From a virus: a stretch of DNA of 35,050 bases. The position numbers were made by a program, and so were the translations under genes. The DNA lies in the IMG/VR virus record IMGVR_UViG_3300044612_003363, positions 1 to 35,050 of that record. One strand, 5' to 3'. Shown here piece by piece: positions 14,544 to 33,590 of this stretch (its first letter is position 1; each line of letters starts with the position of its first letter). Below the pieces are notes generated by a model. That model had not been told where the DNA came from and ran no database searches. It worked only from the letters and a program-made list of their open reading frames with translations.

Positions 14544-14583
14544 CAATGATAAACTTTACAATTACAAATACAGGAGATTGACA

Positions 14584-19423: not shown

Positions 19424-19723
19424 ATGGAATTGATTGGTACGTGGTTCATAACAGCATCCTCCCCGCTCGGGAAAGAGACATACAACCTTCGCCTAAATAG
19501 TGATGGTTCTGGCTCTATTTCGCACGACAGGGGAACAGTTGAATTCTTGGACGCCTTGATAACAAGCTCTGATACATCATTAAATGTTAAAATTTGTGGC
19601 CACACAGACATTCCAATGAGCGTTGATTTCCTCTGCCAGTTTGAATCTATGGGAAAATCCCTAACTGGTTTTGTTGAGATTGGCGAATACGCAAACATTG
19701 AGCTCGCCGGGGTGAAGATATGA
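19424..19723 (+). CDS. Small lipocalin-like beta-barrel protein
   Basis: A 99-residue, strand-rich protein. It opens MELIGTWFITASSPLGKETYNLRL, then SDGSGSISHDRG, and closes LTGFVEIGEYANIELAGVKI. The GTW start, short strands every ten residues and final G-x-G-E/F-x-G strand resemble small calycin/lipocalin-like or avidin-like single-barrel proteins seen in bacteria. It may bind a small hydrophobic ligand such as a lipid or a 2OG oxygenase substrate. No signal peptide. It overlaps the peroxidase-like gene by ATGA, so the two are probably made together. Family call is tentative. Confidence 0.55.
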   Translation: MELIGTWFITASSPLGKETYNLRLNSDGSGSISHDRGTVEFLDALITSSDTSLNVKICGHTDIPMSVDFLCQFESMGKSLTGFVEIGEYANIELAGVKI

Positions 19724-20343: not shown

Positions 20344-20345
20344 TT

Positions 20346-21344
20346 ATGAAAATGCCATCTACTCCACATATTGGTGCGGAAGAACTATCAGAAATCAGCG
20401 AAATCGTTTCTGAAGACCTTGGTAGCGGGATAGTCGTTTTTAGAAACGCATTCAATGTTGAGGACTGGATTCTCAAGCACATCGACGAGTGTGCAGCAGA
20501 AGCCCACAAGAGTCGCTGGTCCTACGTGACCGATGAAGACGGCATAGAGTATGGAATCAACGAGGATGGCTTTAGGTATCGTCTAGAAGACGTCCCAAAT
20601 GCCCCTGTAAGGCTCCTGGAGCCCGTTACAGAGGCGACAAGCCCAGATGTGGTCGAATACTTCACAAGTCTTGAGGACGCCATCTACAAGTGCCTGATTC
20701 GCTATACAGATATGTTCCCATTAATCGTTGGGAGCCTCTGGTGGAGGACAAGGGGTCACATACTCAGGTACGACGGTGGCGGGATACTTGGATGGCACCA
20801 AGACAACGACACGAACTATAAAGTCACCCAGGGTGTCAGATACATGCCACGTGGGCAGGTAGCACTCAGACAGACGGCTGGCGCTTTGGCATATTTCAAT
20901 GATTGTGTAGATAGCGCCGATGAGCTTGATGGGACCAACTTTGCTGGTGGGCACCTTAAGTTTGCATACCTCGGTATTGATTACAAGCCTAGAAAAGGAG
21001 ACATCATCATGTTTCCAACCAACTACATCTGCGCACACGGAGTGACAAAGATGGAGGGTGGAACCAGGTACGCATATCTTTCGTTCTTTGGCCAAGGCGG
21101 AACCGACAATGCGGCGAATATAAGAATTAAAGAGAAAGATGCAAGCATCCAATGGTGTGAGCCAGTTTGGTTTGACAATATTTACGACGACTACGAGCTT
21201 TATTGTAAATCCGAGTACTCAATTTGGTCGAAACCAACACCAGGCCTAGAACTTGGCTCCAATCCTGTTTTCCAAAACAGATGTGTGACGCAGTATGGTG
21301 AAACACACACCGCCCTGGAGGTGAATCAAGTTGAAACGATATGA
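20346..21344 (+). CDS. 2OG-Fe(II) oxygenase, 'LGGGVVVF' subfamily, member 1
   Basis: A 332-residue Fe(II)/2-oxoglutarate dioxygenase, which would hydroxylate a protein or small-molecule substrate using O2 and 2-oxoglutarate. I start it at ATG 20346, two bases after the preceding stop. Iron ligands: H151-Q-D153 and H231; R241 (GGTRYAYLSF) binds 2OG. The N-terminus carries the subfamily signature DLGSGIVVFRNAF, the core has LWWRTRGHILRYDGGG and an NFAGGHLKF strand. Downstream ISWSKP-type residues form an extended C-tail. It aligns with the next gene along nearly its whole length, a tandem duplicate. Confidence 0.85.
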   Translation: MKMPSTPHIGAEELSEISEIVSEDLGSGIVVFRNAFNVEDWILKHIDECAAEAHKSRWSYVTDEDGIEYGINEDGFRYRLEDVPNAPVRLLEPVTEATSPDVVEYFTSLEDAIYKCLIRYTDMFPLIVGSLWWRTRGHILRYDGGGILGWHQDNDTNYKVTQGVRYMPRGQVALRQTAGALAYFNDCVDSADELDGTNFAGGHLKFAYLGIDYKPRKGDIIMFPTNYICAHGVTKMEGGTRYAYLSFFGQGGTDNAANIRIKEKDASIQWCEPVWFDNIYDDYELYCKSEYSIWSKPTPGLELGSNPVFQNRCVTQYGETHTALEVNQVETI

Positions 21345-22320
21345 AGTTGATACACCAGATATTTCGGGTGAAGCACTAGAGGAAATACGCAATCTTAAAT
21401 TCACCGACCTTGGTGGTGGGGTTGTTGTTTTTCATGATGTGATGGACGTAGACCTGCCATTGATGTCAAAGTGGATAGACGATAACGCGTTGGCCGCACA
21501 CCAACAAAGATGGAAATACGACATTGACAAAAACGGTGTTGTGTATGCAAAAAACGAAGACGGAAACAAGTTCTCTATTGAACAAGTTGAAACCGTTCCA
21601 GTGAGAGTTCTCGAGCCAGTGCAGGACGGCACAGAAGAAGAAATAGTCGAAATAATCAGAGGATGGGAAGACTCCATCTATAAAACGTTAATCAGGTACA
21701 TAGACATGTTCCCTCTGGTGGTTGGAACCATATGGTGGAGAAACCGTGGCCATGTTCTTAGATACGACCCAGGTAAGCATCTTGGTCTACATAATGACAA
21801 CGACACTAACTATAGAGCCACTGGTGGAGAGAGATACATTCCGTACGGGCAGGTTGGAGCAAGGCAGACTGTCGCCGTGCTTCTATACATAAATGATTGT
21901 GTTGATTCTGTCGACGAGCTTGATGGCACAAATTACAGCGGTGGCGAATTGTATTTCCCATACCTAAACATAAGCCATAAGGCCAAAAAAGGCGACATCA
22001 TAATCTTCCCAACAAACTATGTCGCATCCCACGGAGTTAATGAAGTAACTGGTGGAACAAGGTATGCATACTTGGAGTTCTTCTCGCAAGGCAGCCCAGA
22101 CATAAACATCAGACTCGAAGTTGCCGAGCCAGATGAGGTTTCAAGCTGGTGTGTTCCACACTGGATAGACACTGTTTACGATGATTACCAAAAGTACTCA
22201 AATCACATCAAGCAGAATTACTCTCACCTGAAAGAAAACAGCAACAAAATTGACTATCTGGTCAGGAACCTTGAAGGGGAAAAAGGTTATATAAATCCGT
22301 TAAATAGAAAGCTTGATTGA
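21331..22320 (+). CDS. 2OG-Fe(II) oxygenase, 'LGGGVVVF' subfamily, member 2
   Basis: The 329-residue tandem paralogue of the preceding gene. The start is TTG 21331, supported by GGAGG nine bases upstream; it overlaps the previous gene by 14 bases. Ligands: H154-N-D156 and H234, with R244 in GGTRYAYLEFF as the 2OG-binding Arg. Same signature (DLGGGVVVFHDVM), same core (IWWRNRGHVLRYDPG), same ELDGTNYSGGELYFPY segment. The last 60 residues are charged and probably helical. It presumably shares or complements the substrate of member 1; divergence of the N-terminal 150 residues may set specificity. Confidence 0.85.
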   Translation: MKRYEVDTPDISGEALEEIRNLKFTDLGGGVVVFHDVMDVDLPLMSKWIDDNALAAHQQRWKYDIDKNGVVYAKNEDGNKFSIEQVETVPVRVLEPVQDGTEEEIVEIIRGWEDSIYKTLIRYIDMFPLVVGTIWWRNRGHVLRYDPGKHLGLHNDNDTNYRATGGERYIPYGQVGARQTVAVLLYINDCVDSVDELDGTNYSGGELYFPYLNISHKAKKGDIIIFPTNYVASHGVNEVTGGTRYAYLEFFSQGSPDINIRLEVAEPDEVSSWCVPHWIDTVYDDYQKYSNHIKQNYSHLKENSNKIDYLVRNLEGEKGYINPLNRKLD

Positions 22321-22865
22321 TTGTGGCGAATATAGGAATTGTTTCAATGGGGAATATGGGGCTCACCATAGCGGCAAGTATGATTAACTCAGGCAACAAA
22401 ATTCACTGGACATCAGAGGGCCGCTCTGAACAAACAAAACAAAATGGGAGAAACCTTAAAGGCTCAATAGAGCACGCAAACATGCAAGAACTTTTCAATG
22501 CTTCAGATGTTGTATTTTGCATTGGCAGGCTTGGGGCAGGAATAGACACAATTAATTCAGCCGCAGATAATAAATTTGAAGGGATATATGTAGACGGGAA
22601 TAATCTCAGCGGTGAATCTTCAGAGAAAGAAATAAGCGAAATAGCTGAATCTGCAAATTTAAAATACGTAGAGGCCCTATTCAGGGGTTACCCAATTGGG
22701 TATGACCAGGGTGGTGGTGAGGATAAGCGAGACTTATATCTGTCTGGGCAATCAGAGTTTGCAAAAGTTGTTGAATCTTTATTTTCTGACGGGATTTGGA
22801 AAGTTCACATTGTCCAAGAATCAGCAAAAGCATTAAACAGAACAAGATTCAAAAGACTCTTTTAG
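22317..22865 (+). CDS. Short Rossmann-fold NAD(P)-binding protein, hydroxyisobutyrate dehydrogenase-like
   Basis: A 182-residue protein beginning ANIGIVSMGNMGLTIAAS. GIVSMGNMG matches the GxGxMG dinucleotide loop of 3-hydroxyisobutyrate/6-phosphogluconate-type dehydrogenases. The rest follows Rossmann topology (SDVVFCIGRLG, then IYVDGNNLSGESS and ALFRGYPIG). Full dehydrogenases of this family are near 290 residues; this one lacks the all-helical second domain, so it is truncated or relies on a partner. It starts at TTG 22317 (TTGA overlap with the stop of the preceding gene) or at GTG 22323. It ends four bases inside the convergent oxygenase gene. Partial oxidation of a hydroxylated product is one possible role. 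Confidence 0.65.
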   Translation: MIVANIGIVSMGNMGLTIAASMINSGNKIHWTSEGRSEQTKQNGRNLKGSIEHANMQELFNASDVVFCIGRLGAGIDTINSAADNKFEGIYVDGNNLSGESSEKEISEIAESANLKYVEALFRGYPIGYDQGGGEDKRDLYLSGQSEFAKVVESLFSDGIWKVHIVQESAKALNRTRFKRLF

Positions 22866-23590
22866 TCAACTTCCCCAACCAAGACTGTTTTCTGAAGATT
22901 ATTTCCAGTTCCAGAATTTCTTTTAAGTTCTTGAGCCCATTCATATGAGCCTTCTTTTTCTTCTTGTCCGTTGCCGTGAAAGAACCAGCTAAGGAAAGCC
23001 CATCTCTCCCCTCCGCTAACCTCGGAAACTTCGTGACATCCTATAAAGTTTGAAGGGTAGATAATTGCCGAGCCTGTTTCTGGCTTAACATTTATCCCCC
23101 ATATTCTGAATAGGACATCTCCTCCAGAGTATGAATCATTCAAAAATATTGAAGTTGTAAGCGTGTTGAAAGCCGGACTAGTTGTCATTGGTTCGAGAGT
23201 CCCATGCTTATAGGGTATGTTGCAGTCAGAGTGCGGACCCATGTCGTTTCCATCGCCATATCTAATCAAGTAGCCATCAGTTTGGCCAGTTATGCACTCC
23301 AAGGCAACCGGGAAAATTTTGCAATACTCGACTACCGCTGAGTATATAGATTCTCTGAGCTTCTTGGTTACATCGAATTCCCCTATGTTCGTGTATCTAC
23401 TCGGAGATTTGCTTTTACTAATCTCGTCAAACTCATAACCACCGTCGCTTATTGTCTTTCCATCCACTATGGAATAACCCTGGGGGGCAGTAGACTCAAA
23501 TATGTGGTTTATCTCATCTGTGTCATCTTGGGATATTTGAACCAAATCTCGCACCAAAACTATGCCGCTACCAAGGTGCACTAATTTCAT
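22862..23590 (-). CDS. 2OG-Fe(II) oxygenase, 'LGGGVVVF' subfamily, member 3 (short)
   Basis: A 242-residue paralogue. Ligands: H120-S-D122 and H186, with R196 (GGERWAFLSWF) as the 2OG-binding residue. The signature at residues 4-14 is VHLGSGIVLVRD. FLNDSYSGGDVLFRIW replaces the longer GG strand of members 1 and 2, and the C-terminal tail is shorter. GGAG lies seven bases before the ATG, while the gene overlaps its upstream neighbour by four bases (ATGA). It is the last gene of the minus-strand oxygenase series and its end overlaps the end of the plus-strand Rossmann gene by four bases. Confidence 0.83.
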   Translation of the reverse strand: MKLVHLGSGIVLVRDLVQISQDDTDEINHIFESTAPQGYSIVDGKTISDGGYEFDEISKSKSPSRYTNIGEFDVTKKLRESIYSAVVEYCKIFPVALECITGQTDGYLIRYGDGNDMGPHSDCNIPYKHGTLEPMTTSPAFNTLTTSIFLNDSYSGGDVLFRIWGINVKPETGSAIIYPSNFIGCHEVSEVSGGERWAFLSWFFHGNGQEEKEGSYEWAQELKRNSGTGNNLQKTVLVGEVD

Positions 23591-24498
23591 AGACTTTCTC
23601 CGAGGGCTAGCCTGTAAGTTTTGGAAGATTTATCCTCACCAACAGAATCTAGGTACTCTAAAAACTTTTCTCTCAAATAAGGAATATATACGTTTGAAGA
23701 TATTGCAGCTTTTTCTGGATTAACTTCTGGGTCTTCAACTTCTTCATTGACTATTGGATTTGGGGTTCCATGCGCATACCATCCAAGATATGTGAATCTT
23801 TCTCCAGATTCGACAGGAGTGACTTCGTGTGCGGCAACATAGTTGGAAGGAAACATAAGAATGTCGCCACGCATTGGACTGTAATCAATATTAAGATATG
23901 TGAATTTATGATGACCCCCAGTAAAGTCGCCAGGGCCAAAACCCTCATAACCGAAACCTCGCGAACCATAGCCATCAACACAGGTGCCAAAATAAACAAT
24001 GCAAGAGACCGTATTCCTTGACGCTAGCTGATGCGGGGGATGAGGAATTCCGTAAACGTAATCAACGCTTGTGTCACTATGCTCACCTATGTATCCACCG
24101 CAGTCAGATGAGTAGTTAACCAAATGCCCTTTGACTTTCCACCAAATATTTTTATACGACAGAGGGAACATGTGCATGTATTTGAGGAGATACCTGTCTT
24201 TTGAATCTTCCAGAAAAGTAAAAAGACTAACCACTTCAGCCCTAGTGTCCTGATGGACCCTTGAGCCTCTTTTGGGCATTTTGTCAATTCCGTTTTTTGA
24301 GAAGAAATATCCGCTTCTGTTCACATATTCTTCTTGACCACTGTCTGGATTTATTGCTGGAGAGTACATTTCTGCAACCTCTCTATCAACTATCTCCTTA
24401 GATACACTGTTGGCAAACGCCCAATCAACAGAAACAGCATTTCTAAAAACCACAACACCTCCGCCAAGGTGTTCTGCTTTAGCATCGTTAAAAATCAT
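23587..24498 (-). CDS. 2OG-Fe(II) oxygenase, 'LGGGVVVF' subfamily, member 4
   Basis: A 303-residue paralogue. Ligands: H140-S-D142 and H224, R234 (SGERFTYLGWY) for 2OG. Signature HLGGGVVVFRNAV at residues 10-22. Between the HxD site and the GG strand (DFTGGHHKFTYL) it carries an extra Gly/Tyr-rich loop (CVDGYGSRGFGYEGFGPG, residues about 173-190) not present in the others, which probably borders the substrate pocket. Overlaps the upstream member 5 by ATGA and runs into member 3 by ATGA, so the three are made as one translational unit. Confidence 0.85.
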   Translation of the reverse strand: MIFNDAKAEHLGGGVVVFRNAVSVDWAFANSVSKEIVDREVAEMYSPAINPDSGQEEYVNRSGYFFSKNGIDKMPKRGSRVHQDTRAEVVSLFTFLEDSKDRYLLKYMHMFPLSYKNIWWKVKGHLVNYSSDCGGYIGEHSDTSVDYVYGIPHPPHQLASRNTVSCIVYFGTCVDGYGSRGFGYEGFGPGDFTGGHHKFTYLNIDYSPMRGDILMFPSNYVAAHEVTPVESGERFTYLGWYAHGTPNPIVNEEVEDPEVNPEKAAISSNVYIPYLREKFLEYLDSVGEDKSSKTYRLALGESL

Positions 24499-25355
24499 TT
24501 ATGGTCATTCTTTCGTGATTTGAAAGGCATTACCTCGTTTGGTATTTTGCCTTCATCGCCATATTTATCCATTAGATATTCATCATAGTCACTTACTATG
24601 TTTTTCATCCACCACTGACCACCAACTGGTCTATCGGTATACAAATCAGGGTCCATAGGAGTTATGCCCCTATCGTCTTGCGCGGAACCCTGCGAGAATA
24701 GACATAAGTACGTGTACCTGCAGCCCGAAGTAACTTCAAGTATCTCATGTGCTCCAAGATAGTTGGATGGCATAAACACAATGCTTCCAGCTCTAGGTTT
24801 TATTGTTGCCCCTACATGCGGAATAACCATTTCTCCGCCAGAAAAAGACATTTCGCTACAATCACCGTCTTCACAATTGTCATTAAGATAAACAAGAACT
24901 GTTATTACTGCTCTTGTTGCATTCTCTACTGGCGGGAATTGCCCATACCTATAATTAACATCGTTGTCGCAATGTAGGCCAAGTTTTGCTCCAGTTGGAT
25001 ATTTGAGTGCATGTCCTTCAGTTCTCCACCATAAGCACTGCAGTATTCCGGGGAATAATTCAATATATCGCAAAAGGCATTCGTAAACCACTTTTTCGCA
25101 TTCCCAAAAAAAGGGGTGATTTAGATTTTGAATCCTTATTGGAGTTTTTGCTATTGACTCAAGTTCAAATATGAATCCACTTCTGTTCACTGCATGAATT
25201 GGCTCACCATTTTCATCAAGAATGTATTCGTACTGCTCTTTTATGGACTCCACCGCAAGCTTGTCTATTATTTTAACTATTTCACCTACGGGTACATCAA
25301 TGGCGTCTTCAAATACAACGACACCACCACCAAGGTCTCTTAGTCCAGAATTCAT
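24495..25355 (-). CDS. 2OG-Fe(II) oxygenase, 'LGGGVVVF' subfamily, member 5
   Basis: A 286-residue paralogue. Ligands: H128-C-D130 and H203, R213 (SGCRYTYLCLF). Signature DLGGGVVVFEDAI at residues 7-19; core LWWRTEGHALKYPTG like members 1 and 2. The GG strand is SFSGGEMVIPHV. It heads the three-gene translational block 25355-22862. A TGA-TATGTT box six bases before the ATG and no Shine-Dalgarno suggest a leaderless promoter, in the 21-base gap to the upstream gene. Confidence 0.85.
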   Translation of the reverse strand: MNSGLRDLGGGVVVFEDAIDVPVGEIVKIIDKLAVESIKEQYEYILDENGEPIHAVNRSGFIFELESIAKTPIRIQNLNHPFFWECEKVVYECLLRYIELFPGILQCLWWRTEGHALKYPTGAKLGLHCDNDVNYRYGQFPPVENATRAVITVLVYLNDNCEDGDCSEMSFSGGEMVIPHVGATIKPRAGSIVFMPSNYLGAHEILEVTSGCRYTYLCLFSQGSAQDDRGITPMDPDLYTDRPVGGQWWMKNIVSDYDEYLMDKYGDEGKIPNEVMPFKSRKNDHK

Positions 25356-25361
25356 GGAAAA

Positions 25362-25370
25362 AACATATCA
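25362..25370 (-). promoter_or_regulatory. Extended -10 box for a leaderless start at 25355
   Basis: On the minus strand TGA followed by TATGTT ends six bases before ATG 25355 (spacer TTTTCC). There is no Shine-Dalgarno site. It fits the TGN-TANNNT element seen before 2070, 18458, 19424 and 31424. Confidence 0.45.
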
Positions 25371-25376
25371 CATTCT

Positions 25377-26000
25377 TCAGCTTCGGCAGCTCTTAGGACC
25401 ACCTACGGCGTATTCTGACCAGTCGGGTACGACTGTAAAATTTTCGTTTTTAGGTTTAAAATTTGCACTTACAACAATTCTGTCTTCTTCACCATAATGC
25501 CTATTTGTCATATGGTGAATATAAGAATTGAATAAAACCAGTTTTCCAGTTTTTGCAGGTATCGCATACGAGCTCTCTATCATATTGCAGTGATTTGTTA
25601 GGAATATTAAATCAGCACTTCCATCTGGGGCATTGACGTAATAGGATATTGAAAAATAGTCATTTGGATGAAGGTGAGTATTCACCCTGTGTGTGTGGCC
25701 AGCTACTGATTGACCTCGCTCTAGGGTTAATGTCCATATTGAGTCAAGTTCCATATCCTTTCCAAGAATTGAATTTACTGATAACTTCAATTCCTCAATA
25801 AGCCTTGAACACTCTGGCATTGAAAATGGATAGTGCCTATCTTCATAAAAAGTATGTGCCGGATTTGGGTCTTTTATATATGGTATTGACCCAGAATATT
25901 CTTTAATTTCTCTTGCAACCAAATCATTATCAATGTTTGTAATGTCCGTCGTAAAGACATCAAGAGTTATTAAATTTATTTTTTCATACTTTTTATTCAT
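25377..26000 (-). CDS. 2OG-Fe(II) oxygenase-like protein (PF13759-like type)
   Basis: A 207-residue protein using ATG 26000, which overlaps the stop of the preceding gene. SVAGHTHRVNTHLHPNDYFS leading to ISYYVNAPDGSADLIF, then AKTGKLVLFNSYIHHMTNR (H162/H163) and RIVVSANF (R174), matches the layout of the 2OG-FeII_Oxy_5 type (H...HP..LSGVYY...LVLFPSWLxH...RISISFN). It is much more divergent than the 'LGGGVVVF' group. Likely small-molecule or protein hydroxylase; substrate unknown. The exact iron ligands cannot be fixed by eye. Confidence 0.68.
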   Translation of the reverse strand: MNKKYEKINLITLDVFTTDITNIDNDLVAREIKEYSGSIPYIKDPNPAHTFYEDRHYPFSMPECSRLIEELKLSVNSILGKDMELDSIWTLTLERGQSVAGHTHRVNTHLHPNDYFSISYYVNAPDGSADLIFLTNHCNMIESSYAIPAKTGKLVLFNSYIHHMTNRHYGEEDRIVVSANFKPKNENFTVVPDWSEYAVGGPKSCRS

Positions 26001-26664
26001 ACACAAAATTCGCCATATTGACTGGTGGATTTTTTTTCAACCATACATTAATTACCATCACATTCCTAATACCAGAAATACATGGACTTGTTTGATGTAT
26101 GACTCTCCCAGCATCAAATATAATCAACCTATTCTCTTTGAATGCGATTCTTTCTCTAAGTTCTATTGGGTCTAGTTTTGTTTTTAGATTTTCCCATTCA
26201 AGAGCGTCTTTTTCTCCAAATATTAATTTCGTTTCAAATAACTCCAAAAATCCACCAACCACTTTTTCTGCAGATGGTCCATAGTAGACACATCCGATTT
26301 CTGGCCCGTTGTAAATTTTTGTATCTTGGTAGAGAAACGTATCCTCATCGACATGTGGTCCAAGAAATTGCCCAGGGCCAAAAGTTCTAGTCCAATACTC
26401 AAACCCAAGAATATCCTCAAGAGGAATAGTAAGGTTGTTTTCCCATATTTTTCTAATTACTTGTTTTCTCACAGAGTCAGCCGGAGAATACCACCACCCA
26501 TGCCAAAACATGTATGGGGCATAGCAACTAGATTGCTCGTTATGATAGGAATTAACTTCGCTTGCTATCCTTGATTCAGCTTGCATTAATCCAGGAAAGA
26601 AGCTTTCACATTCAGAAACCAGATTGAATAGCTCGGCGTCCAAGTAGTTGTCAAGTATATTCAT
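25993..26664 (-). CDS. 2OG-Fe(II) oxygenase, divergent
   Basis: A 223-residue protein. Likely ligands H104-V-D106 (FLGPHVDEDTF) and H190 (GRVIHQTSP), with R200 in SGIRNVMVINVWL for 2OG. The N-terminal 90 residues, including HNEQSSCYAPYMFWHGWWYS, are aromatic and unlike the other oxygenases in the window, suggesting a different substrate. A TAATTT box ends six bases before the ATG, with no Shine-Dalgarno. Overlaps the next gene by eight bases (ATGAATAA). Confidence 0.72.
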   Translation of the reverse strand: MNILDNYLDAELFNLVSECESFFPGLMQAESRIASEVNSYHNEQSSCYAPYMFWHGWWYSPADSVRKQVIRKIWENNLTIPLEDILGFEYWTRTFGPGQFLGPHVDEDTFLYQDTKIYNGPEIGCVYYGPSAEKVVGGFLELFETKLIFGEKDALEWENLKTKLDPIELRERIAFKENRLIIFDAGRVIHQTSPCISGIRNVMVINVWLKKNPPVNMANFVYE

Positions 26665-26670
26665 GGTTCA

Positions 26671-26676
26671 AAATTA
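26671..26676 (-). promoter_or_regulatory. Possible -10 box (TAATTT) before 26664
   Basis: TAATTT on the minus strand ends six bases before ATG 26664 (spacer TGAACC), in the 16-base gap after the gene at 26681. There is no TGN upstream. Fits the general TANNNT-leaderless geometry but is AT-rich and could be chance. Confidence 0.3.
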
Positions 26677-26680
26677 TGCT

Positions 26681-26875
26681 CTATTGAGTTTTTCCTGAAA
26701 ACTGCAAATTTATTTCTGACAACATTTCCGCAAGTACGTATATGGGCTCAGTGAAGTGAGAATCTCTTGCATAATCAGAGCCGAAGGCACCGCTGTTAAT
26801 TAACATCGTGCGAGATAAGTTTTCGTAACTCACAGCCACCCCAGGTGAGTCATTGAACAAAACTTTAGATTCCAT
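26681..26875 (-). CDS. Small hypothetical protein
   Basis: A 64-residue protein of unknown function; its sequence MESKVLFNDSPGVAVSYEN continues with a short mixed alpha/beta part (FTEPIYVLAEMLSEINLQF). No known motif. It starts 63 bases after the methyltransferase-like gene ends, and 16 bases before the next oxygenase gene begins. A TATAAT box lies eight bases before its ATG. It may be real because both neighbours leave a space of exactly this size and the start has a promoter-like element; homology would settle this. Confidence 0.5.
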   Translation of the reverse strand: MESKVLFNDSPGVAVSYENLSRTMLINSGAFGSDYARDSHFTEPIYVLAEMLSEINLQFSGKTQ

Positions 26876-26883
26876 AAAAAGTT

Positions 26884-26889
26884 ATTATA
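26884..26889 (-). promoter_or_regulatory. TATAAT box before 26875
   Basis: A consensus TATAAT on the minus strand ends eight bases before ATG 26875, inside the 63-base gap after the methyltransferase-like gene. No -35 consensus was found and no Shine-Dalgarno. Likely promoter for the oxygenase genes downstream of it. Confidence 0.45.
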
Positions 26890-26938
26890 ACCTAGTTAGC
26901 CAAAGCAAAGATACCTAGATATGCACTGTTTAAAGGCA

Positions 26939-27688
26939 TTAATTTTTTACAAACATCGTGCAACCATAGTTGCTGGAATCATGGAAAAGCGTTCCATCCA
27001 TAGACTTGAGTGTTTTATGGAATTCGTTGTTTGGATGAAACCAATAATCATCCCTGTAAAGTTTCCCAGAGTTGTTGGATGAATTCACCATCAAAACACC
27101 AGCTGGAGCCAAAGCGTCAACGCACTTACGGACCAATTCATTATTATCGTACACAAAGTGATAAGCCTGCATAGCTATGAGCTCAAAACCAGTTGCTTCA
27201 CCTTGACCTATTTCCGACCTGTCCACGACATAGTAATCAACGTCATATTCAACTTCATTCAAATCGTCACGCATAAATTGCTCAAAATTCCACAGACTTT
27301 GGTTATTCACGAAAAACAATTGAGTTTCTGGAAATTTGGTTTTCTGCAGCCATGGTGAAGCGGTCTTGTCTGCATCAAAGTAGAGAATTTTATTTGGAGA
27401 TTTTGAAGACATAATAAATTCATTTGGTGATGCTTCTGCAACCATCATGCTGGACCACGCATCGTTCATTGCCTGCGTTATATCAACGTACCAAAGACCT
27501 TCGGTTGCACCTCTTGCGGCAATTGACAAATTCAAGTTTAAGGATTGTCTCCAGTTAAAAACTCTTTGCAATCCCTCAAATCGCTCAGCATATCCTCTTT
27601 GGGCAGACTCTTCACCAAGAATATTTTCTGGCATGTATTTTGAAATCGATGTTGATACCATCGCTGTTCTTAGTTGCTTATTGTCCAT
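26939..27688 (-). CDS. SAM-dependent methyltransferase-like protein
   Basis: A 249-residue protein from ATG 27688, which overlaps the preceding gene by 11 bases, with AAAGG upstream. Sequence shows a Rossmann-like core: NKILYFDADKT, then DVDYYVVDRSEIGQG and an aromatic-rich PAGVLMVNSSNNSGK near the end. It resembles class I SAM-dependent O-methyltransferases of phages. The canonical GxGxG loop is not plain, so the family call is moderate. It may methylate a hydroxylated product or host surface sugar. It precedes the 26875 gene and the oxygenases downstream. Confidence 0.5.
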   Translation of the reverse strand: MDNKQLRTAMVSTSISKYMPENILGEESAQRGYAERFEGLQRVFNWRQSLNLNLSIAARGATEGLWYVDITQAMNDAWSSMMVAEASPNEFIMSSKSPNKILYFDADKTASPWLQKTKFPETQLFFVNNQSLWNFEQFMRDDLNEVEYDVDYYVVDRSEIGQGEATGFELIAMQAYHFVYDNNELVRKCVDALAPAGVLMVNSSNNSGKLYRDDYWFHPNNEFHKTLKSMDGTLFHDSSNYGCTMFVKN

Positions 27689-27998
27689 TTTTTGCCGCCT
27701 TTGCAAGCGTGTAATTCCAATTTGCAGTTCTGACTCTGCCTGTCAAGAGGGCATTTTGTTTTGAAAAAAATCTTGGTATTGCATTATTGGTGTACGTAGG
27801 TTCTAGGGAGCTCCTAAGGTCGCTGCTATATCTCCACATACTCCTCAGGGCAATCACTACATCTTCAATCACCATTGAGTCAACATTTGTTGGGTCAAAG
27901 TCTAGAATGTACGCGAATATTGCGAGTGTTTCTTCGTTGTAAACAATTTCTTCATCGGCATCGTAAAGATTTTCTCCGCCAGCAGCCCTATGCCTCAC
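27678..27998 (-). CDS. Small hypothetical protein
   Basis: A 106-residue protein. I choose GTG 27998 because AGGAG lies seven bases upstream; a TTG two codons earlier (28004) is also possible. The N-terminus RHRAAGGENLYDADEEIVYN is acidic; the middle is helical (LAIFAYILDF, VVIALRSMW) and the end basic (TGRVRTANWNYTLAKAAKNG). No family recognised. It overlaps the next gene and is overlapped by the preceding one, so it belongs to a co-translated set with the 102-residue protein and the methyltransferase-like protein. Confidence 0.65.
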   Translation of the reverse strand: MRHRAAGGENLYDADEEIVYNEETLAIFAYILDFDPTNVDSMVIEDVVIALRSMWRYSSDLRSSLEPTYTNNAIPRFFSKQNALLTGRVRTANWNYTLAKAAKNGQ

Positions 27999-28296
27999 TT
28001 GCAATCTCCTCTACTACTTCATCTTTATGGAAATCGCCTGGTTCGGTAACTTCCCATTTCATTTGAGGGTCATTTGACTGCAGTAGGTCGCAGAAAAATG
28101 TTGCACCGTCTGGAAGTTCATATGACATTAACGCTGGGTTCCACCTAGCAACCTGCGAATCCCTATTTGGGTTTTCCTGTGGTTCTTGTATGTTCGGAAA
28201 ATCTGCGTCAATGTCTGGACAGACTTCATATTTCCCAGAATTCATAGCTTCTTCAACTATTGAAATTTTTTTAGGGATTTTTGGCGTTATCTTCAT
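27988..28296 (-). CDS. Small acidic hypothetical protein
   Basis: A 102-residue, very acidic protein (MKITPKIPKKISIVEEAMNS). It has a mixed core with VARWNPALMSYELPDGATF and ends acidic (FHKDEVVEEIASEA), which could be a peptide-binding or substrate-mimic region. No family recognised. It lies seven bases after the gene at 28304 ends. A TAAAAT sits four bases before its ATG, a shorter gap than the leaderless pattern, and no Shine-Dalgarno is clear. Confidence 0.6.
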   Translation of the reverse strand: MKITPKIPKKISIVEEAMNSGKYEVCPDIDADFPNIQEPQENPNRDSQVARWNPALMSYELPDGATFFCDLLQSNDPQMKWEVTEPGDFHKDEVVEEIASEA

Positions 28297-28303
28297 AAAG
28301 ATT

Positions 28304-28537
28304 TTACGCTTGGAGTCTTGCTAGCGCCGCCAATTGCAACTTAAGACATTCATACGCATCGTACTGTGCTAGCAGTGCACTGTTTTCATTAGTGGCAAGA
28401 TTAATTGGGTTCACCATATCGGCCTCGAGGTCAGCATCTTCCACCCCCAGGACGAATGCAAGGGTATAAATTGAATACTCAAGTATTTGAATTGCTTCAG
28501 CTTTTGCTTTAGCTAGTTGTTCTGCCGAAAGCGCCAT
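28304..28537 (-). CDS. Small hypothetical helical protein
   Basis: A 77-residue protein that reads as almost entirely helical (ALSAEQLAKAKAEAIQILEY), with a hydrophobic centre (YSIYTLAFVLGVED) and a C-terminal Leu/Ala helix (LKLQLAALARLQA). It is not a signal peptide. Function unknown; could be a small structural or chaperone-like phage protein. TAGGGT ends seven bases before the ATG, a possible leaderless box overlapping the preceding stop. Confidence 0.55.
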   Translation of the reverse strand: MALSAEQLAKAKAEAIQILEYSIYTLAFVLGVEDADLEADMVNPINLATNENSALLAQYDAYECLKLQLAALARLQA

Positions 28538-28544
28538 GTCCTAA

Positions 28545-28550
28545 ACCCTA
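28545..28550 (-). promoter_or_regulatory. Possible -10 box (TAGGGT) before 28537
   Basis: TAGGGT on the minus strand ends seven bases before ATG 28537 and includes the stop codon of the upstream gene. No TGN precedes it. Listed because it fits the spacing of the stronger cases; may be chance. Confidence 0.25.
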
Positions 28551-28784
28551 CTCTGCGATTCGTGACTTTATACCGTCAATCTTTGAAAGAAAATCGGCAA
28601 TCAACTTATGACCGTGAATTATTCTGCCGTCTTCTGTTCCAGGTGTAAAACTCTTTTCGTCAAACGTGTCTGGGTTAAAACCCTCTTGAAGTAGTCTCTC
28701 CATTAGCTGTCTCTCAAGGTCTTTGAGCGTTCGCTGATAGACGAGCTTTTTCTCCTGGGTTGTAAAAGAAGATTCAAATTTCAT
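28548..28784 (-). CDS. Small hypothetical helical protein
   Basis: A 78-residue helical protein with KKLVYQRTLKDLERQLMERL and, at the end, IADFLSKIDGIKSRIAE. No family recognised. GGAG lies five bases before the ATG and a TAAAAT box is about 37 bases further upstream, so this is the likely first gene of a unit through the small genes and the methyltransferase. It is separated from the DUF6065-like gene by 45 bases. Confidence 0.65.
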   Translation of the reverse strand: MKFESSFTTQEKKLVYQRTLKDLERQLMERLLQEGFNPDTFDEKSFTPGTEDGRIIHGHKLIADFLSKIDGIKSRIAE

Positions 28785-28821
28785 AGCGGCTCCATAATCC
28801 CTTTGTTGGACAAGTACCCAT

Positions 28822-28827
28822 ATTTTA
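28822..28827 (-). promoter_or_regulatory. Promoter-like TAAAAT upstream of a Shine-Dalgarno leader
   Basis: TAAAAT lies about 37 bases before ATG 28784, and GGAG five bases before it, an ordinary leadered arrangement unlike the leaderless boxes elsewhere. It sits in the 45-base gap after the DUF6065-like gene. No clear -35 box was seen. Confidence 0.35.
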
Positions 28828-28829
28828 CA

Positions 28830-29531
28830 CTATGGATTGGCTAATTTTGGCAGCCCGGTGAATGTTGGTCCTATTCTATTATTGTCAGCGTCAAGACCTG
28901 AACGAATACCCTTAGTCCACGTCCATGGGTTTTCAATACCGTTTTTCGCCTTCATCTGACCATACTTCATTCTCGACTCAACCAACTCTTTATCGTCCCA
29001 GAGACTTGACTGGATAATTTCAACATTCTCAAGGACGGAATTATCGTAGATATTAAAGAAGCAAAATGGCGTTCCGGCCTCGAACACAACAGGCTCTCCA
29101 ACTTTTGTTATTTTCCAGTTCATCTGGGATTCGTCTGGCCACCAGTAACTTGGAATTGTTGCAGTAAGTGGGGCTGCTCCGTCAATAAAATAGTTTGGCG
29201 AGCCAGTCATCCACATGCTGTAACCGTCTTCTGTGTTTACAACCCAACCCATATGAATAGAAATCATTCCTATTATTGAAGAAGTGGCTTGAGTCCGACC
29301 GTTTTCTGTAGTCTCCCCGGAGAGGATTCTTGGGGGCGTATTTCCTCCGTCCCACTGGACAACCAAGTCTTCCTCCATGACAATCTCCCACCCATAGACA
29401 TTTGCAACAGTCATCGGCATGCATTGGTAAGCATGCTTGTTATGGGTGTTATCCATCCAATCACGATTAAAACGCGATTGCTTAATTAATGGGGAAGTTT
29501 GATGTGTTTTTTTTAAAAACAATTTTGTCAT
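28830..29531 (-). CDS. DUF6065-like protein
   Basis: A 233-residue protein showing the pattern I associate with DUF6065: NRDWMDNTHNKHAYQCMPMT, then NVYGWEIVMEEDLVVQWDGG, YSMWMTGSPNYFIDGAAPL and MNWKITKVGEPVVFEAGTPF. These proteins occur in bacterial and phage genomes near 2OG oxygenases, sulfotransferases and glycan genes; their reaction is unknown. The layout is a jelly-roll-like beta protein without obvious iron ligands, so it may be a partner or an unusual enzyme. It overlaps the upstream oxygenase by ATGA, strongly linking the two. Confidence 0.75.
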   Translation of the reverse strand: MTKLFLKKTHQTSPLIKQSRFNRDWMDNTHNKHAYQCMPMTVANVYGWEIVMEEDLVVQWDGGNTPPRILSGETTENGRTQATSSIIGMISIHMGWVVNTEDGYSMWMTGSPNYFIDGAAPLTATIPSYWWPDESQMNWKITKVGEPVVFEAGTPFCFFNIYDNSVLENVEIIQSSLWDDKELVESRMKYGQMKAKNGIENPWTWTKGIRSGLDADNNRIGPTFTGLPKLANP

Positions 29532-30259
29532 TTTTTGTAAATAAACCTCTCCACCTGATTCGCACTCGGACTGACTATGCCGGGTCCGTATTCTGCATCT
29601 GTCCCATCCATGTTTTTGCCGTAACCCTTCCAGAGTTTGTGATATCTATCGTTGTAGTCAAACATCGTAACAGCGGCATACTTGGTTCCTTTTGTAACAG
29701 GCCTGGACGCATGTGAGTAAATAAAGGTAGAAGGGAATAAAACAATATCCCCATACTTTGGCTTAAATGTAATGTCAAGAAACGGAAAGAAAAGCTCCCC
29801 GCCTTCATAGTCATCGTTTAGATACATAACAGAAGAAACTGTACAGACGTAGGAAAAACCGTGGTCTGCGTGCACGTTGAAGTGTTGGCCCTCGTTGTAC
29901 CTGACATAGTTTATTGCTTCCATAAAATCCATGCGAATGTTATAACGAGATTCATAGTCCTGTAAACAGGCAGTCAGTCCTGTCACTGTGTCGTTGTATA
30001 TATTTATCAATTCGCTGAATTGTTCTGGGCAATTTTCAAAGTGCGCAGGACTCATTTTGCAATCAACACAGTCTCTGTAATCCTTCATGACTTGTCCATC
30101 ACCAACAAGAGCCTCCATCCATGAGTACGGAGGTGTATCGCTGTTTCCTATTGTCGCCTCAAGCCGCTCTGGTATTTTCAGGTCTTGATTTAGAACATTT
30201 CTATAGACCAAAAAACCAGCCTTTGGGTCTCCCACATACTCAACATCGATGTTTCTCAT
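29528..30259 (-). CDS. Prolyl 4-hydroxylase-like 2OG-Fe(II) oxygenase
   Basis: A 243-residue P4H-type oxygenase. Ligands: H130-A-D132 (FNVHADHGF) and H183 (YSHASRPVTKG). The GG strand YEGGELFFPF and the FKPKYGDIVLFP turn are classical P4H features. The 2OG-binding position, usually Arg, is Lys193 (KGTKYAAVTMF), as in some prolyl hydroxylases. The N-terminal 100 residues (with CVDCKMSPAHF) have no match to the others. It is coupled to the DUF6065-like gene by ATGA. A TATGAT box ends six bases before the ATG. Confidence 0.85.
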   Translation of the reverse strand: MRNIDVEYVGDPKAGFLVYRNVLNQDLKIPERLEATIGNSDTPPYSWMEALVGDGQVMKDYRDCVDCKMSPAHFENCPEQFSELINIYNDTVTGLTACLQDYESRYNIRMDFMEAINYVRYNEGQHFNVHADHGFSYVCTVSSVMYLNDDYEGGELFFPFLDITFKPKYGDIVLFPSTFIYSHASRPVTKGTKYAAVTMFDYNDRYHKLWKGYGKNMDGTDAEYGPGIVSPSANQVERFIYKK

Positions 30260-30265
30260 TTGCTC

Positions 30266-30271
30266 ATCATA
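30266..30271 (-). promoter_or_regulatory. -10-like TATGAT box for a leaderless start at 30259
   Basis: TATGAT on the minus strand ends six bases before ATG 30259 (spacer GAGCAA). There is no TGN upstream. GAGCAA could count as a poor Shine-Dalgarno, so both readings remain open. Confidence 0.35.
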
Positions 30272-30797
30272 TCCCGGAAAACCATATTGCCAAACTCACC
30301 CTATTGCCACTAAACACGCTATCCACATAGTGCCGGTGTATCAAATCGCTCGGGAATATCACACAATCACAAATATTTGGTTTGTATCGATAGTCAATCC
30401 CCGGAAACACCAAGTCACCGCCCGTGAAATCGCTGTTTAAGTAGACCACTGCAGAAATAACAAAATTACTACAGCCAGGTTTTGGTGTTCCGTCAAGATT
30501 CTGGTTGTCTGCATGTTCTTCTGTTGTATTCCCCGGAACCACCTCAATTAAGGCTGCTTGGTCAATCTCCAGATTGAGACCAAACTCTTGTTCGGCTAAT
30601 CCAAGAACCCGTTCGCATATCTCTTCAAGGATTCCATATGCAAAAAAATCGTACTCCAATAGCTGCGATTTTTGATAGTACCCAGTGGATGGGTCATCTT
30701 TTGCTAGATTTGAAGGTAATCCAATTGCTTTTATTGCGCTAGTAATTACTTCGCATTCTTTTTGCTTTACAGCGTCTTTTTTTATGATAACCATCAT
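30267..30797 (-). CDS. Short 2OG-Fe(II) oxygenase
   Basis: A 176-residue compact oxygenase. Ligands: H95-A-D97 (EEHADNQ) and H156 (HRHYVDSV), with R166 in SGNRVSLAIWF. It has the GG strand TGGDLVFPGIDY followed by YRYKPNICDCVIFP. It lacks the long N-terminal domain of the others. Start ATG 30797 is directly after the stop of the upstream gene (TAGATG), so translation is coupled. P4H-type active site; substrate unknown. Confidence 0.8.
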   Translation of the reverse strand: MMVIIKKDAVKQKECEVITSAIKAIGLPSNLAKDDPSTGYYQKSQLLEYDFFAYGILEEICERVLGLAEQEFGLNLEIDQAALIEVVPGNTTEEHADNQNLDGTPKPGCSNFVISAVVYLNSDFTGGDLVFPGIDYRYKPNICDCVIFPSDLIHRHYVDSVFSGNRVSLAIWFSGI

Positions 30798-31424
30798 CTA
30801 CTGAACCGTATAGAACGAAGGTGTCGTGTATCTGCACCCCTCTGTCACCATAGTGACTCCATGTAGATAATTGACATCACCTGGATGAGCAACGGCTAGA
30901 CCTGGTTTTGGCTTGATACTTATACCGTGTTGGGGGTAATAAAGCTCCCCTCCCTCGAAGTTGTCATTGTAGTAGAAAAGAGAATTTATGTCGTAGTCAA
31001 CGAAGGCGTTTGGTTCTCCATTGTTTAACTGTTTGTCAGCGTGCGGCTTTTGCTCAATTCCAGGACGCCACTTCATAATTACTGGTGGTCGTGGAGATAG
31101 CTCTACACCGTAGATATCTTCAAGCACTGATTGCATCTTATCTATATATTTCTCAATTATTAAAAATACCTGTGGAGAAAGCTTTTGAAGAATATCGCTA
31201 CTACACGTTCTGTCATTCCAGTAATCTGCATTATATAGACAGGTCCCATCTTCTGCATAGACGCTTTCCTGTGAGTTGTTCCATTCGTTAATTTTCGGAC
31301 AGAATTCCTGCACTGTAATCAAGTCCTCGGCATCGATGAAGTTCTCAAAAATATGTATATTTTCAGGACCTGACCCAAAGTGCCCAGGTTTTATTTTCCA
31401 TGGTGATTTGCTGTCTGTTGACAT
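30798..31424 (-). CDS. Prolyl 4-hydroxylase-like 2OG-Fe(II) oxygenase
   Basis: A 208-residue oxygenase. Ligands: H128-A-D130 (KPHADKQL) and H188 (YLHGVTMV), R198 (EGCRYTTPSFY) for 2OG. GG strand: FEGGELYYPQHG; then KPKPGLAVAHP. It is a close relative of the 32957 gene (shared HAD...YNDNFEGGELYYPQ layout and Y-T-T/S-P-x-F end). A TGT-TAGTGT box ends seven bases before the ATG. Confidence 0.85.
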   Translation of the reverse strand: MSTDSKSPWKIKPGHFGSGPENIHIFENFIDAEDLITVQEFCPKINEWNNSQESVYAEDGTCLYNADYWNDRTCSSDILQKLSPQVFLIIEKYIDKMQSVLEDIYGVELSPRPPVIMKWRPGIEQKPHADKQLNNGEPNAFVDYDINSLFYYNDNFEGGELYYPQHGISIKPKPGLAVAHPGDVNYLHGVTMVTEGCRYTTPSFYTVQ

Positions 31425-31431
31425 GCCAATA

Positions 31432-31440
31432 ACACTAACA
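31432..31440 (-). promoter_or_regulatory. Extended -10 box for a leaderless start at 31424
   Basis: TGT followed by TAGTGT on the minus strand ends seven bases before ATG 31424 (spacer TATTGGC). No Shine-Dalgarno site. It lies in the 18-base gap after the sulfotransferase-like gene. Confidence 0.45.
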
Positions 31441-31442
31441 GG

Positions 31443-32189
31443 CTATCGATGCTTGGATTTGACTAAATCGTACAGAATAACATCGAGAAACGACCTTTCA
31501 AGTATTTCCAGTTTCGTACGATTTGAGATTTTAATATCTTGACTGGTTATTGAATTCATTTTCAAATAAGCGTTTTCCGAAAGTGTAAATCCATGGGTAA
31601 ATTTGACTTTATCAGCCAGCCAATTAATTGCTGTTTCTCTATCTTCCATAGCAAAAAGATTCATACTTTCAGTGCATTCACTTATTGCGCTTGGTTCTGG
31701 TAGGTCTGATTCTATAAAAACTAAGTTCACACTACTTGCGACGTCAATTTCACGTAATGCAACTACCGACTCGTCACATGTAGCCAATCTGCAGAAAAGC
31801 ATTTTTGACTGTATATTTCCCGAACTTGAAAATAGTTCATTGGCTCCAAATGGAGTAACACTACCCCACATGAATTCTTCAAGAAAATAATTGTCAAACT
31901 CCACATTGCCACTTTTGGCTACGTATTTAGCGATACTCAGATAATGCTGAATAGGCTCTCTAATAAGTGAAAATACATCGTAGGCATTTCTATTTTGAAA
32001 AATTGGGTTTGAAGCAAAATGACCAGATACGTATGGATTATCCCTAAATATATCTTGTGAAAAGATTTCACTCTGAGTAGGTTTATGTAAATGGAAACCT
32101 TGTTCTGAAAATGTTTTTTCTAATGCATTAGCAATCCCGTATCCAGATGTTCTGGGTATGTGCAGATGATATATTTTTTTATCATTCAT
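31443..32189 (-). CDS. Sulfotransferase-like protein 1
   Basis: A 248-residue protein with HIPRTSGYGI (residues 10-19), equivalent to the 5'-phosphosulfate-binding P-loop-like IPKTAGTS motif, and SLIREPIQHYLSIAKY (residues 74-89), equivalent to the 3'-phosphate-binding RDP...S motif (R77, S85). This is the layout of sulfotransferases that use PAPS and act on carbohydrates (Sulfotransfer_2 type). A GHFA element between the two motifs is also typical. The usual catalytic base cannot be fixed by eye, so activity is uncertain. Overlaps the paralogue by eight bases. May sulfate surface or capsule sugars, or an oxygenase product. Confidence 0.7.
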   Translation of the reverse strand: MNDKKIYHLHIPRTSGYGIANALEKTFSEQGFHLHKPTQSEIFSQDIFRDNPYVSGHFASNPIFQNRNAYDVFSLIREPIQHYLSIAKYVAKSGNVEFDNYFLEEFMWGSVTPFGANELFSSSGNIQSKMLFCRLATCDESVVALREIDVASSVNLVFIESDLPEPSAISECTESMNLFAMEDRETAINWLADKVKFTHGFTLSENAYLKMNSITSQDIKISNRTKLEILERSFLDVILYDLVKSKHR

Positions 32190-32970
32190 GTTCTGTTTCT
32201 TTTATTTTTTCATACAGTTCAAGGTCTATTTCAATTTTTGAATATATTTTTGATTTGTGTTGCCTGCTTATTCTAAATGTTGGTTTAGGGGTTTCGTTAA
32301 TTACTGAATTGTTATTAGACATTCTGATTCCATATAAATCAAATAAAATCTTATTTATTCTTTCTACAAAAAAAGCCCTATTTTCTAAAGTCCCTATTAT
32401 TATTTTGTCTAATCTTTTACTTAATTCTGAATAAGACTTCGGCTTTTCTACAAAGAACGCTTGATACCTGGCTTCAACCAAGTTCCCATATGAGTCTAGA
32501 TAGGGTTCATTTTCAATGCATGCAATTTTGGAGAACAAAAAACAAGACTGTGGATTATTGCATCCAGAAATTCCTTCAAATTGAGTATTGAATTCGTCAT
32601 CATTATTTAAGAATAAGTCTAGAAATTCTTCGGTAAAATTAACTCCAGACTGAACTGCTGCATATTTCGCCAAACTTAGATACTGCTCAAATGGTTCTCT
32701 TATTATGGAGAATGTTATTAAATCATCCACCAATGCAATCGGATTTCTGGCAAAGTGCCCACATATTATGTCGTATGAATCTGCTATTGATGGGTCAAAA
32801 ACAAACTCGAATTTATCACCTTTATGCTGTGACCGGTTTGTATCCTGCGCATATACTTTTGGCTTATTTTTTAACAGACTTCTCGATGAGGCATCAATCA
32901 ATTCGTATTGCATTTTGATGCCAGATGTTTTTGGTATATGTAAGAAATAAAGTTTTTTACTTTTGAACAT
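32182..32970 (-). CDS. Sulfotransferase-like protein 2
   Basis: A 262-residue paralogue of the next gene downstream, with HIPKTSGIKM (residues 11-20), GHFARNP and SIIREPFEQYLSLAKY (residues 88-103; R91, S99) in the same order. The C-terminal half is divergent and rich in Lys/Glu/Ile, which should set acceptor choice. The two are tandem and overlapping, and this gene also overlaps the upstream prolyl-hydroxylase-like gene by 14 bases. The pair looks like a duplication within one operon. A role in sulfating polysaccharide or a small molecule is inferred. Confidence 0.7.
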   Translation of the reverse strand: MFKSKKLYFLHIPKTSGIKMQYELIDASSRSLLKNKPKVYAQDTNRSQHKGDKFEFVFDPSIADSYDIICGHFARNPIALVDDLITFSIIREPFEQYLSLAKYAAVQSGVNFTEEFLDLFLNNDDEFNTQFEGISGCNNPQSCFLFSKIACIENEPYLDSYGNLVEARYQAFFVEKPKSYSELSKRLDKIIIGTLENRAFFVERINKILFDLYGIRMSNNNSVINETPKPTFRISRQHKSKIYSKIEIDLELYEKIKETEHE

Positions 32971-33580
32971 CCATGGCCGCCATCTCCATCAATATCTTAT
33001 GTTTTACTGGAATCCAGAAATGTGGAGAAGTGTACCTAACCCCATCCGTGACTTCAGTAACCCCGTGAGCGTACATGTTTGTTGATGGGAAAAAAACCAG
33101 CGTTCCAGGTTGTGGCTTCATGTGAATGTTGTATTTTGGAAAGAAAAGTTCCCCACCCTCGTAGTCGTCATTTAGGTAGATAATTGAGCCGTAGTCGACT
33201 ATGTAGTTATATCCAGGCCAACCATCTGCCGTTTCCCCATCTGCGTGGATGGCTTGATTTTCACCAGTGTTCCATTTTCTTATTCCTGGCTTTGTTCTTT
33301 CAAGAAATCTGCCAAATTTATACTGCACTTCATGCTGTACTGCATCTACGTATTCTTGCATTATTGAAAAAATTTCCGGAGAATTTTTTTCAATCAACTC
33401 TGGAGTATGAATACTGTCAGTCCCAAGCTGGCTTTGAGACTCCCATTCTTTGGTCGAGCGGCAGTAATCAAGTATTTTTGCAAGGTGTTCTTTGGTTATA
33501 AAATTTTCTTTTATTACTATGTTTGATGGGTCGGCAAAAGGGAGACTATCAAGCTGCAATGATTCGTCCCGGAAAATCAT
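32957..33580 (-). CDS. Prolyl 4-hydroxylase-like 2OG-Fe(II) oxygenase next to PPFF-repeat gene
   Basis: A 207-residue P4H-type oxygenase. Ligands: H112-A-D114 (NQAIHADGET), H172 (YAHGVTEV), and R182 (DGVRYTSPHFW) for 2OG. The GG strand is YEGGELFFPKYN followed by MKPQPGTLVFFP. It is related to the 30798 gene. GAGG lies seven bases before ATG 33580, and only about ten bases separate it from the FN3 gene whose C-terminus is a PPFF repeat. Because P4H-type enzymes hydroxylate Pro-rich peptides, the adjacent repeat is a likely, though unproven, substrate. Confidence 0.85.
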   Translation of the reverse strand: MIFRDESLQLDSLPFADPSNIVIKENFITKEHLAKILDYCRSTKEWESQSQLGTDSIHTPELIEKNSPEIFSIMQEYVDAVQHEVQYKFGRFLERTKPGIRKWNTGENQAIHADGETADGWPGYNYIVDYGSIIYLNDDYEGGELFFPKYNIHMKPQPGTLVFFPSTNMYAHGVTEVTDGVRYTSPHFWIPVKHKILMEMAAMDVQK

Positions 33581-33590
33581 CCGGAAACCT

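Follow-up and report, generated by a model that had tools for sequence, protein, structure and literature searches.

Aquatic phages commonly carry 2-oxoglutarate-Fe(II) (2OG) oxygenases among their auxiliary genes. Their role in viruses has been called cryptic or uninvestigated (PMC9602691, PMC9301287). Here we describe an island of eleven such genes in the virus record IMGVR_UViG_3300044612_003363 of IMG/VR, the whole of which (35,050 bases) is the window analysed, together with a neighbouring gene, REP, that encodes FN3 repeats and a C-terminal (PP[YF]F)n arm, and a gene of the family DUF6065. The nearest viral precedent is PBCV-1 vCPH (PDB 5c5t), which, like the modelled island enzyme ox5, is a virus-encoded 2OG oxygenase of the prolyl 4-hydroxylase (P4H) fold, and which is summarised as hydroxylating proline-containing peptides in vitro (Eriksson et al. 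1999, cited in PMC7019647). In contrast to the island, vCPH is a single enzyme of an algal virus, with no known operon containing a PPxF adhesin and DUF6065.

The 2OG-Fe(II) oxygenases of cyanophages (phrog_61, phrog_81) have their superfamily and phage families in common with the island, and in the cyanophages ACG-2014f and Sf-FS3 a 2OG gene lies beside collagen-like or S74 tail-fibre genes. Unlike the island genes, they are scattered across the genome, come with no DUF6065 match in 50,697 phage records and have a proposed metabolic role. In one ACG-2014f locus (L506:88-5564) the 2OG gene is flanked by a collagen-repeat gene on one side and a tail-fibre gene on the other, which hints at wider tail modification. 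The P4Hs of eukaryotic collagen and algal cell walls (C-P4H-II, 7zsc; algal P4H, 3gze) have the fold predicted for the island enzyme ox5 and act on proline-rich repeat proteins that form structural fibres, a likeness to the proposed PPxF arm; their repeats, however, are of the GPP or SP kind, and in none of these systems are as many as twelve enzymes tied to one PP-x-F repeat in a phage tail gene. Collagen-like (G-X-Y)n phage tail fibres place a proline-rich repeat in a tail protein, as proposed for REP, but the PPxF repeat has no glycine register and (PPG)n contigs have no 2OG arrays. In the open-licence literature we found no precedent for prolyl hydroxylation of phage tails and no description of the present system.

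The locus belongs to one of two diverged island types, in both of which a tail-region FN3/(PP-x-F)n gene heads or adjoins three to twelve P4H-like oxygenases and DUF6065. Judged from this genomic association, the enzymes may hydroxylate the REP arm.

Eleven 2OG oxygenases within 13 kb

The initial annotation had read eleven 2OG-Fe(II) oxygenases in one block of about 13 kb, and this was borne out: all eleven open reading frames (ORFs) lie where it had placed them, within 13 kb, and all eleven match Pfam 2OG-FeII_Oxy_3 or 2OG-FeII_Oxy_5. Conservation of the iron and 2OG residues is at least 95% within every one of ten ortholog groups. Nine of the eleven genes score above the Pfam curated cut-off (27); the two below it begin at 30798 (26.0 bits, and above the cut-off at 27.8 bits in a genome-mode search) and at 25993 (22.4 bits). 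Measured against close relatives, the ratio of non-synonymous to synonymous substitution (dN/dS) is 0.009-0.14 for all eleven, and these are therefore working genes under strong purifying selection. By their sequences the eleven genes are 2OG-Fe(II) oxygenases, with 2OG turnover itself predicted.

Conservation was counted across 55 related loci of at least 15 kb each, collected via a relative of ox5; this and the other fetched sets (relatives, repeat contigs, controls, type II loci) are samples, and the counts cover the matches listed. Two genes lie on the forward strand, ox1 (20346..21344; H151, D153, H231, R241; 49 of 55 loci) and ox2 (21331..22320; H154, D156, H234, R244; 40 of 55). The 20346 start of ox1 is an internal ATG of ORF 20304-21344, directly past the stop of a glutathione-peroxidase-like (GPx-like) gene. 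The other nine are on the reverse strand. Profile matches and active-site residues identify ox3 (22862..23590; H120, D122, H186, R196; 20 of 55), the core gene ox4 (23587..24498; H140, D142, H224, R234; 55 of 55) and, as with ox1 and ox2, the core P4H-like gene ox10 (30798..31424; H128, D130, H188, R198; 54 of 55). A profile match and a structure model identify core ox5 (24495..25355; H128, D130, H203, R213), which is in 55 of 55 loci because these were collected by its relative, so that its presence is by construction. A variant H-x-H iron site marks ox6 (25377..26006; PF13759, 7.3e-11; 23 of 55), whose ORF is TTG-started with a more likely start two codons further in. The divergent, near-core ox7 (25993..26664; H104, D106, H190, R200; 50 of 55) matches PF13640 at 2.5e-4, under the cut-off. 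Core, P4H-like ox8 (29528..30259; H130, D132, H183, K193; 55 of 55) matches PF13640 at 3e-13, accessory ox9 (30267..30797; H95, D97, H156, R166; 14 of 55) at 1.1e-9, and P4H-like ox11 (32957..33580; H112, D114, H172, R182, with these residues conserved) at 2.5e-9.

The annotation had further proposed several families, assembled by expansion and recruitment, and a quick tree with several long branches agrees: ox1-ox5 form a single clade of old tandem paralogs whose split predates phage divergence, while ox8, ox9, ox10/ox11, ox6 and ox7 lie outside it. Sequence identity inside the window is 53% between ox1 and ox2 and 37% between ox10 and ox11. Of the structural comparison suggested for all eleven enzymes, the part carried out concerned ox5 and gave a prolyl hydroxylase fold. 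Its AlphaFold model (predicted local distance difference test score 88) has a P4H-type fold: prolyl hydroxylases fill all of the top 50 re-aligned PDB rows, with Z of 15-16, and include PHD2, PBCV-1 vCPH (5c5t, the best Foldseek match), algal P4H with a (Ser-Pro)5 peptide and human P3H1. A phmmer search of PDB sequences matched ox8 to the bacterial P4H 3itq (E 8e-8) and gave no match for ox5 or DUF6065, whose folds are thus predicted ones.

A proline-rich repeat gene heads the island

The REP gene (33590..34834, reverse strand; Pfam fn3, 1.4e-14) is the first complete gene of a leftward operon: from 34834 to 22862 the genes form a nearly gapless same-strand array in which neighbours are spaced by -29 to +45 bases, apart from a single 274-base gap. 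Its arm consists of ten PP[YF]F units at residues 366-405, which correspond to 33620..33739 when coordinates are derived from residue numbers. The repeat is PP-x-F and has no G-X-Y triplets, so it is not collagen-like. Among contigs the FN3 part varies and the P-P-x-F unit persists, with F or Y usual at x and R or H occasional there; the prolines and the last phenylalanine are constant, which makes the prolines, or the constant phenylalanine, the likely target. Third bases of the proline codons in the array include A, T and G, and differences between units are mostly synonymous (135 versus 48 codon differences), indicating that the amino acids and not the DNA are kept.

We evaluated the association between repeat and oxygenases in three directions. 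Among 41 records of one tail lineage, found by baseplate J, 30 of the 32 that hold five or more PF13640 genes have the repeat, as against 0 of the 9 with three or fewer (Fisher 1.6e-7). Both exceptions are cut at the repeat edge, one (L012, G001) opening at g27988 and the other (L075, G024) having 1.7 kb before ox5. In the reverse direction, 50 contigs were chosen solely by the repeat codons; 44 carry 2OG genes and 31 carry at least five. This is in contrast to contigs chosen by a tail-fibre motif, where 3 of 50 have a PF13640 gene and one has at least five, and by collagen-like (PPG)n, where 11 of 50 have 2OG genes and none has five or more. The low tail-fibre figure also indicates that the oxygenase content of the window is more than chance. 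The one control contig with six 2OG hits contains the repeat as well, which lies some 600 bp upstream of the largest 2OG cluster there. After de-replication, for which a stricter clustering was used since a first, loose one merged most loci, the counts were 40/45 for the repeat, 3/45 for the tail-fibre control and 10/48 for the collagen-like control (P ≤ 2e-11). Of the six repeat contigs with no PF13640 gene, one (G084) ends at the repeat and another (G082/L199) has an ox10 relative missed by Pfam.

The third direction started from DUF6065 in type II loci. All 55 have 2OG genes and 51 have a Pro-Phe repeat gene; the four others begin at or near the first island gene, and the repeat is thus present in 51 of 51 uncut loci. 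Oxygenases are so dense in island loci that testing adjacency there by random placement had little power, and the tyrosine fraction of the repeat showed no correlation with oxygenase number.

Conservation in uncultured relatives

Scattering of these genes in relatives would have spoken against a functional block. Instead, gene order is kept in relatives whose proteins are only 36-60% identical, and a search of metagenomic viral contigs for the set, as had been suggested, returned related IMG/VR contigs carrying five to twelve such genes in conserved order with DUF6065. Over whole records, close relatives have 5-12 PF13640 genes; for several baseplate J relatives that are further removed the figure is 0-3. 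Type I islands, which include that of the window, and type II islands have proteins that are mostly 25-47% identical and follow the same logic, the usual type II order being repeat gene, ox8, ox8, DUF6065, ox10 and ox11s on one strand. Five type II loci (L556, L568, L569, L572, L575) have a second repeat gene downstream of the island.

The number eleven, which the initial annotation had called exceptional, is not so by itself. The isolated cyanophages S-SCSM2R, S-SSM7 and Sf-FS3 have 11 hits each, and cyanophage S-SCSM1 has been published with 24 2OG oxygenase ORFs (PMC9602691), though scattered. Given that the three isolates spread their hits across 216-244 kb and that close relatives of the window phage have 5-12, it is tight clustering and not count that is distinctive, typical of this uncultured group and unusual among isolates. 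Searches of 50,697 phage records gave no DUF6065 match, and isolated phages gave no match to ox7, no near-identical DNA to the window and no match to the REP protein, a search that low-complexity masking may blind.

Proposed function and alternative explanations

The initial annotation had suggested tailoring of a polymer, a natural product or an adhesin; linkage to the repeat gene favours the adhesin. A natural-product cluster was considered, gained no support and was placed below adhesin modification. On balance, we consider it slightly on the probable side that the block is a virion-maturation cassette that would hydroxylate the proline-rich arm of a tail adhesin, with substrate and chemistry deduced from gene content. 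A more specific version, that a DUF6065-containing battery of up to twelve P4H-like enzymes densely hydroxylates the (PPxF)n arm to give a hydroxyproline-rich attachment fibre with no described phage counterpart, is offered tentatively, with a little less than even confidence.

These considerations allow us to hypothesise a mechanism. Late in infection the enzymes would use O2 and host 2-oxoglutarate on the newly made arm, most likely at its invariant prolines and possibly at aromatic residues, before or during its joining to the tail. REP would be a tail adhesin, and its modified arm would provide a stiff, more polar or adhesive tip for attachment to the host. The many old paralogs may each serve particular sites, particular stages in the order of modification or different adhesins, DUF6065 could act as an assembly or presentation partner, and sulfotransferase-like and other accessory genes may add strain-specific decoration. 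If this is correct, phages build hydroxyproline-rich attachment fibres using their own enzymes, attachment depends on oxygen and 2-oxoglutarate, and the islands hold a new class of protein material and enzymes. The three-direction statistical test now ties multi-gene 2OG islands to one concrete candidate substrate, by which the open role of phage 2OG oxygenases becomes a question answerable by experiment.

Several points weigh against arm hydroxylation. The substrate, the hydroxylation and the virion location of REP are read from gene content and association, and the association could stem from co-inherited tail modules. About four repeat contigs (G047, G050, G079, G090) have no PF13640 gene and no obvious cut, and some type I relatives have ox10 on the other strand. 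The structure model covers one enzyme (ox5) of eleven, ox6 and ox7 have no clear prolyl-hydroxylase likeness, and neither DUF6065 nor the GPx-like protein has a role assigned to it. A real caution comes from PBCV-1, source of the best-studied viral P4H, whose virion proteins showed no detected hydroxyproline (PMC7019647).

Two further points also lend weight to the principal alternative, in which the oxygenases act on other tail proteins, host surface polymers or a small metabolite while the repeat adhesin is a co-travelling host-range module. One PPxF arm offers few kinds of site for eleven enzymes, and eleven paralogs suggest several substrates; repeat-unit and oxygenase counts are uncorrelated (rho 0.15, P 0.22). 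The sulfotransferase-like, Rossmann and desaturase genes that some islands contain would suit such a role, as would the single 2OG genes that isolated cyanophages carry amid glycosyltransferase, heptose and epimerase genes. However, these accessory partners are sporadic (7-22 of 55 loci) whereas the repeat is universal where testable, no complete sugar pathway was found in the window, and the association is specific to the PPxF repeat rather than to tail-fibre or collagen-like genes. We therefore regard this alternative as unlikely.

It is more doubtful still that the enzymes hydroxylate host proteins and so steer host translation, in the manner of bacterial P4H-type enzymes that act on EF-Tu or ribosomal proteins. 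Among the structural neighbours of ox5 are the P4H-EF-Tu complex of P. putida and a bacterial P4H described in its entry title as modifying EF-Tu, but host targets would leave the position in the tail block and the association with the repeat unexplained, and would have no need of five to twelve enzymes tied to one phage repeat. Slightly less probable again is a metabolic function, proposed for cyanophage 2OG oxygenases (PMC3037559; PMC9602691), in which consumption of 2-oxoglutarate shifts host nitrogen and energy metabolism; this would not call for up to twelve ordered, diverged paralogs, DUF6065 or a tail repeat gene in the same operon. That the enzymes are TET/JBP-like oxygenases which hypermodify DNA bases, as weak Tet_JBP (PF12851) matches (E 0.001-0.12) and the dUTPase-like model of DUF6065 might suggest, is very improbable, since the matches reach at most 18.8 bits, far under the 34.9 cut-off for that family, ox5 has the predicted fold of a prolyl hydroxylase, and neither a base hydroxymethylase nor a base glucosyltransferase was found in the window.

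Partner genes and the tail module

The initial annotation had overlooked the putative (PPYF)n adhesin gene, the GPx-like gene and the universality of DUF6065, which it had named only as one partner among several. The DUF6065 gene (28830..29531, reverse strand) matches PF19541 at 7.8e-45 (153.6 bits, cut-off 26.6) and is in 55 of 55 loci. The structure predicted for it, which is poor at residues 23-38, resembles dUTPase in fold (50 rows, Z about 10), a likeness that gave no lead on function. The GPx-like gene (19720..20343, forward strand; PF00255, 1.3e-24) is in 54 of 55 loci. The peroxidatic cysteine or selenocysteine position (NVASxCG context) is non-cysteine in most displayed orthologs, the product thus lacking the usual catalytic residue of glutathione peroxidases; a conserved cysteine lies about eight residues past the usual site (P[KQR]CSxxWSYAR).

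Among the other partners named, Pfam supports a membrane fatty-acid desaturase (18458..19390, forward strand; PF00487, 1.1e-31; 7 of 55 loci) and a short NAD(P)-binding Rossmann protein (22317..22865, forward strand; PF03807 and PF03446 above cut-off; 22 of 55). The two sulfotransferase-like genes, st1 (31443..32189, reverse strand; E 0.011; 14 of 55) and st2 (32182..32970, reverse strand; E 0.0036; 9 of 55), have weak PHROG matches to phrog_3347 and no Pfam match. The supposed methyltransferase gene (26939..27706, reverse strand; 17 of 55) matched no family, with no Pfam, PHROG or NCBIfam support for that label. From these counts the sulfotransferase-like, methyltransferase-like and desaturase genes are accessory and not core. 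Four small reverse-strand ORFs lie between this gene and DUF6065, at 27678..28004 (108 aa; 17 of 55), 27988..28296 (102 aa; 15 of 55), 28304..28537 (77 aa; 19 of 55) and 28548..28784 (78 aa; conserved in 36 of 55).

DUF6065 in two genome_contigs loci proved to lie on phage-like contigs within metagenome-assembled genomes (MAGs). Among 369 genomes of the same cellular class one further copy was found, with no island gene recognised around it. The two phage contigs, L141:10723-13366 and L140:7365-8165, are binned in Verrucomicrobiales and Gammaproteobacteria MAGs and carry the island, by eye also with one to three TauD-like oxygenases; close to the island of L141 there are LPxVLP repeats.

The window phage is a large uncultured myovirus, with relatives of up to 210 kb, and the 35,050-base record is probably a fragment of a larger genome. 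The left half of the window is a contractile tail module with sheath, tube, chaperone, baseplate J and tail-fibre-like genes. It includes the baseplate J/wedge gene (11821..13269, forward strand; PF04865, 4.6e-11), the backbone gene used for finding relatives, and a tail-fibre-like gene on the island flank opposite REP (14497..15624, forward strand; phrog_8780, 1.9e-17). A gene in this tail block for a Gly-rich and FN3 protein (15621..17480, forward strand) is 41-44% identical to the REP FN3 region by sequence comparison. A C-terminal tail-fibre tip domain (34838..35050, reverse strand) adjoins REP upstream and runs off the record; it is 54% identical to the end of 14497-15624, and the fibre-tip domain is thus duplicated on both island flanks. 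In L114 the repeat gene comes after baseplate J and fibre genes, and L197 has two fibre-tip/repeat pairs in tandem. In the type II loci L204 (8063-9304, reverse strand) and L515 (1-564, forward strand) the Pro-Phe repeat is followed by sequence that by eye resembles a self-cleaving domain of the Hint/intein type (CIGADTEILTVNG..., CIAEGTLVDTPRG...), which would point to the arm being released or joined.

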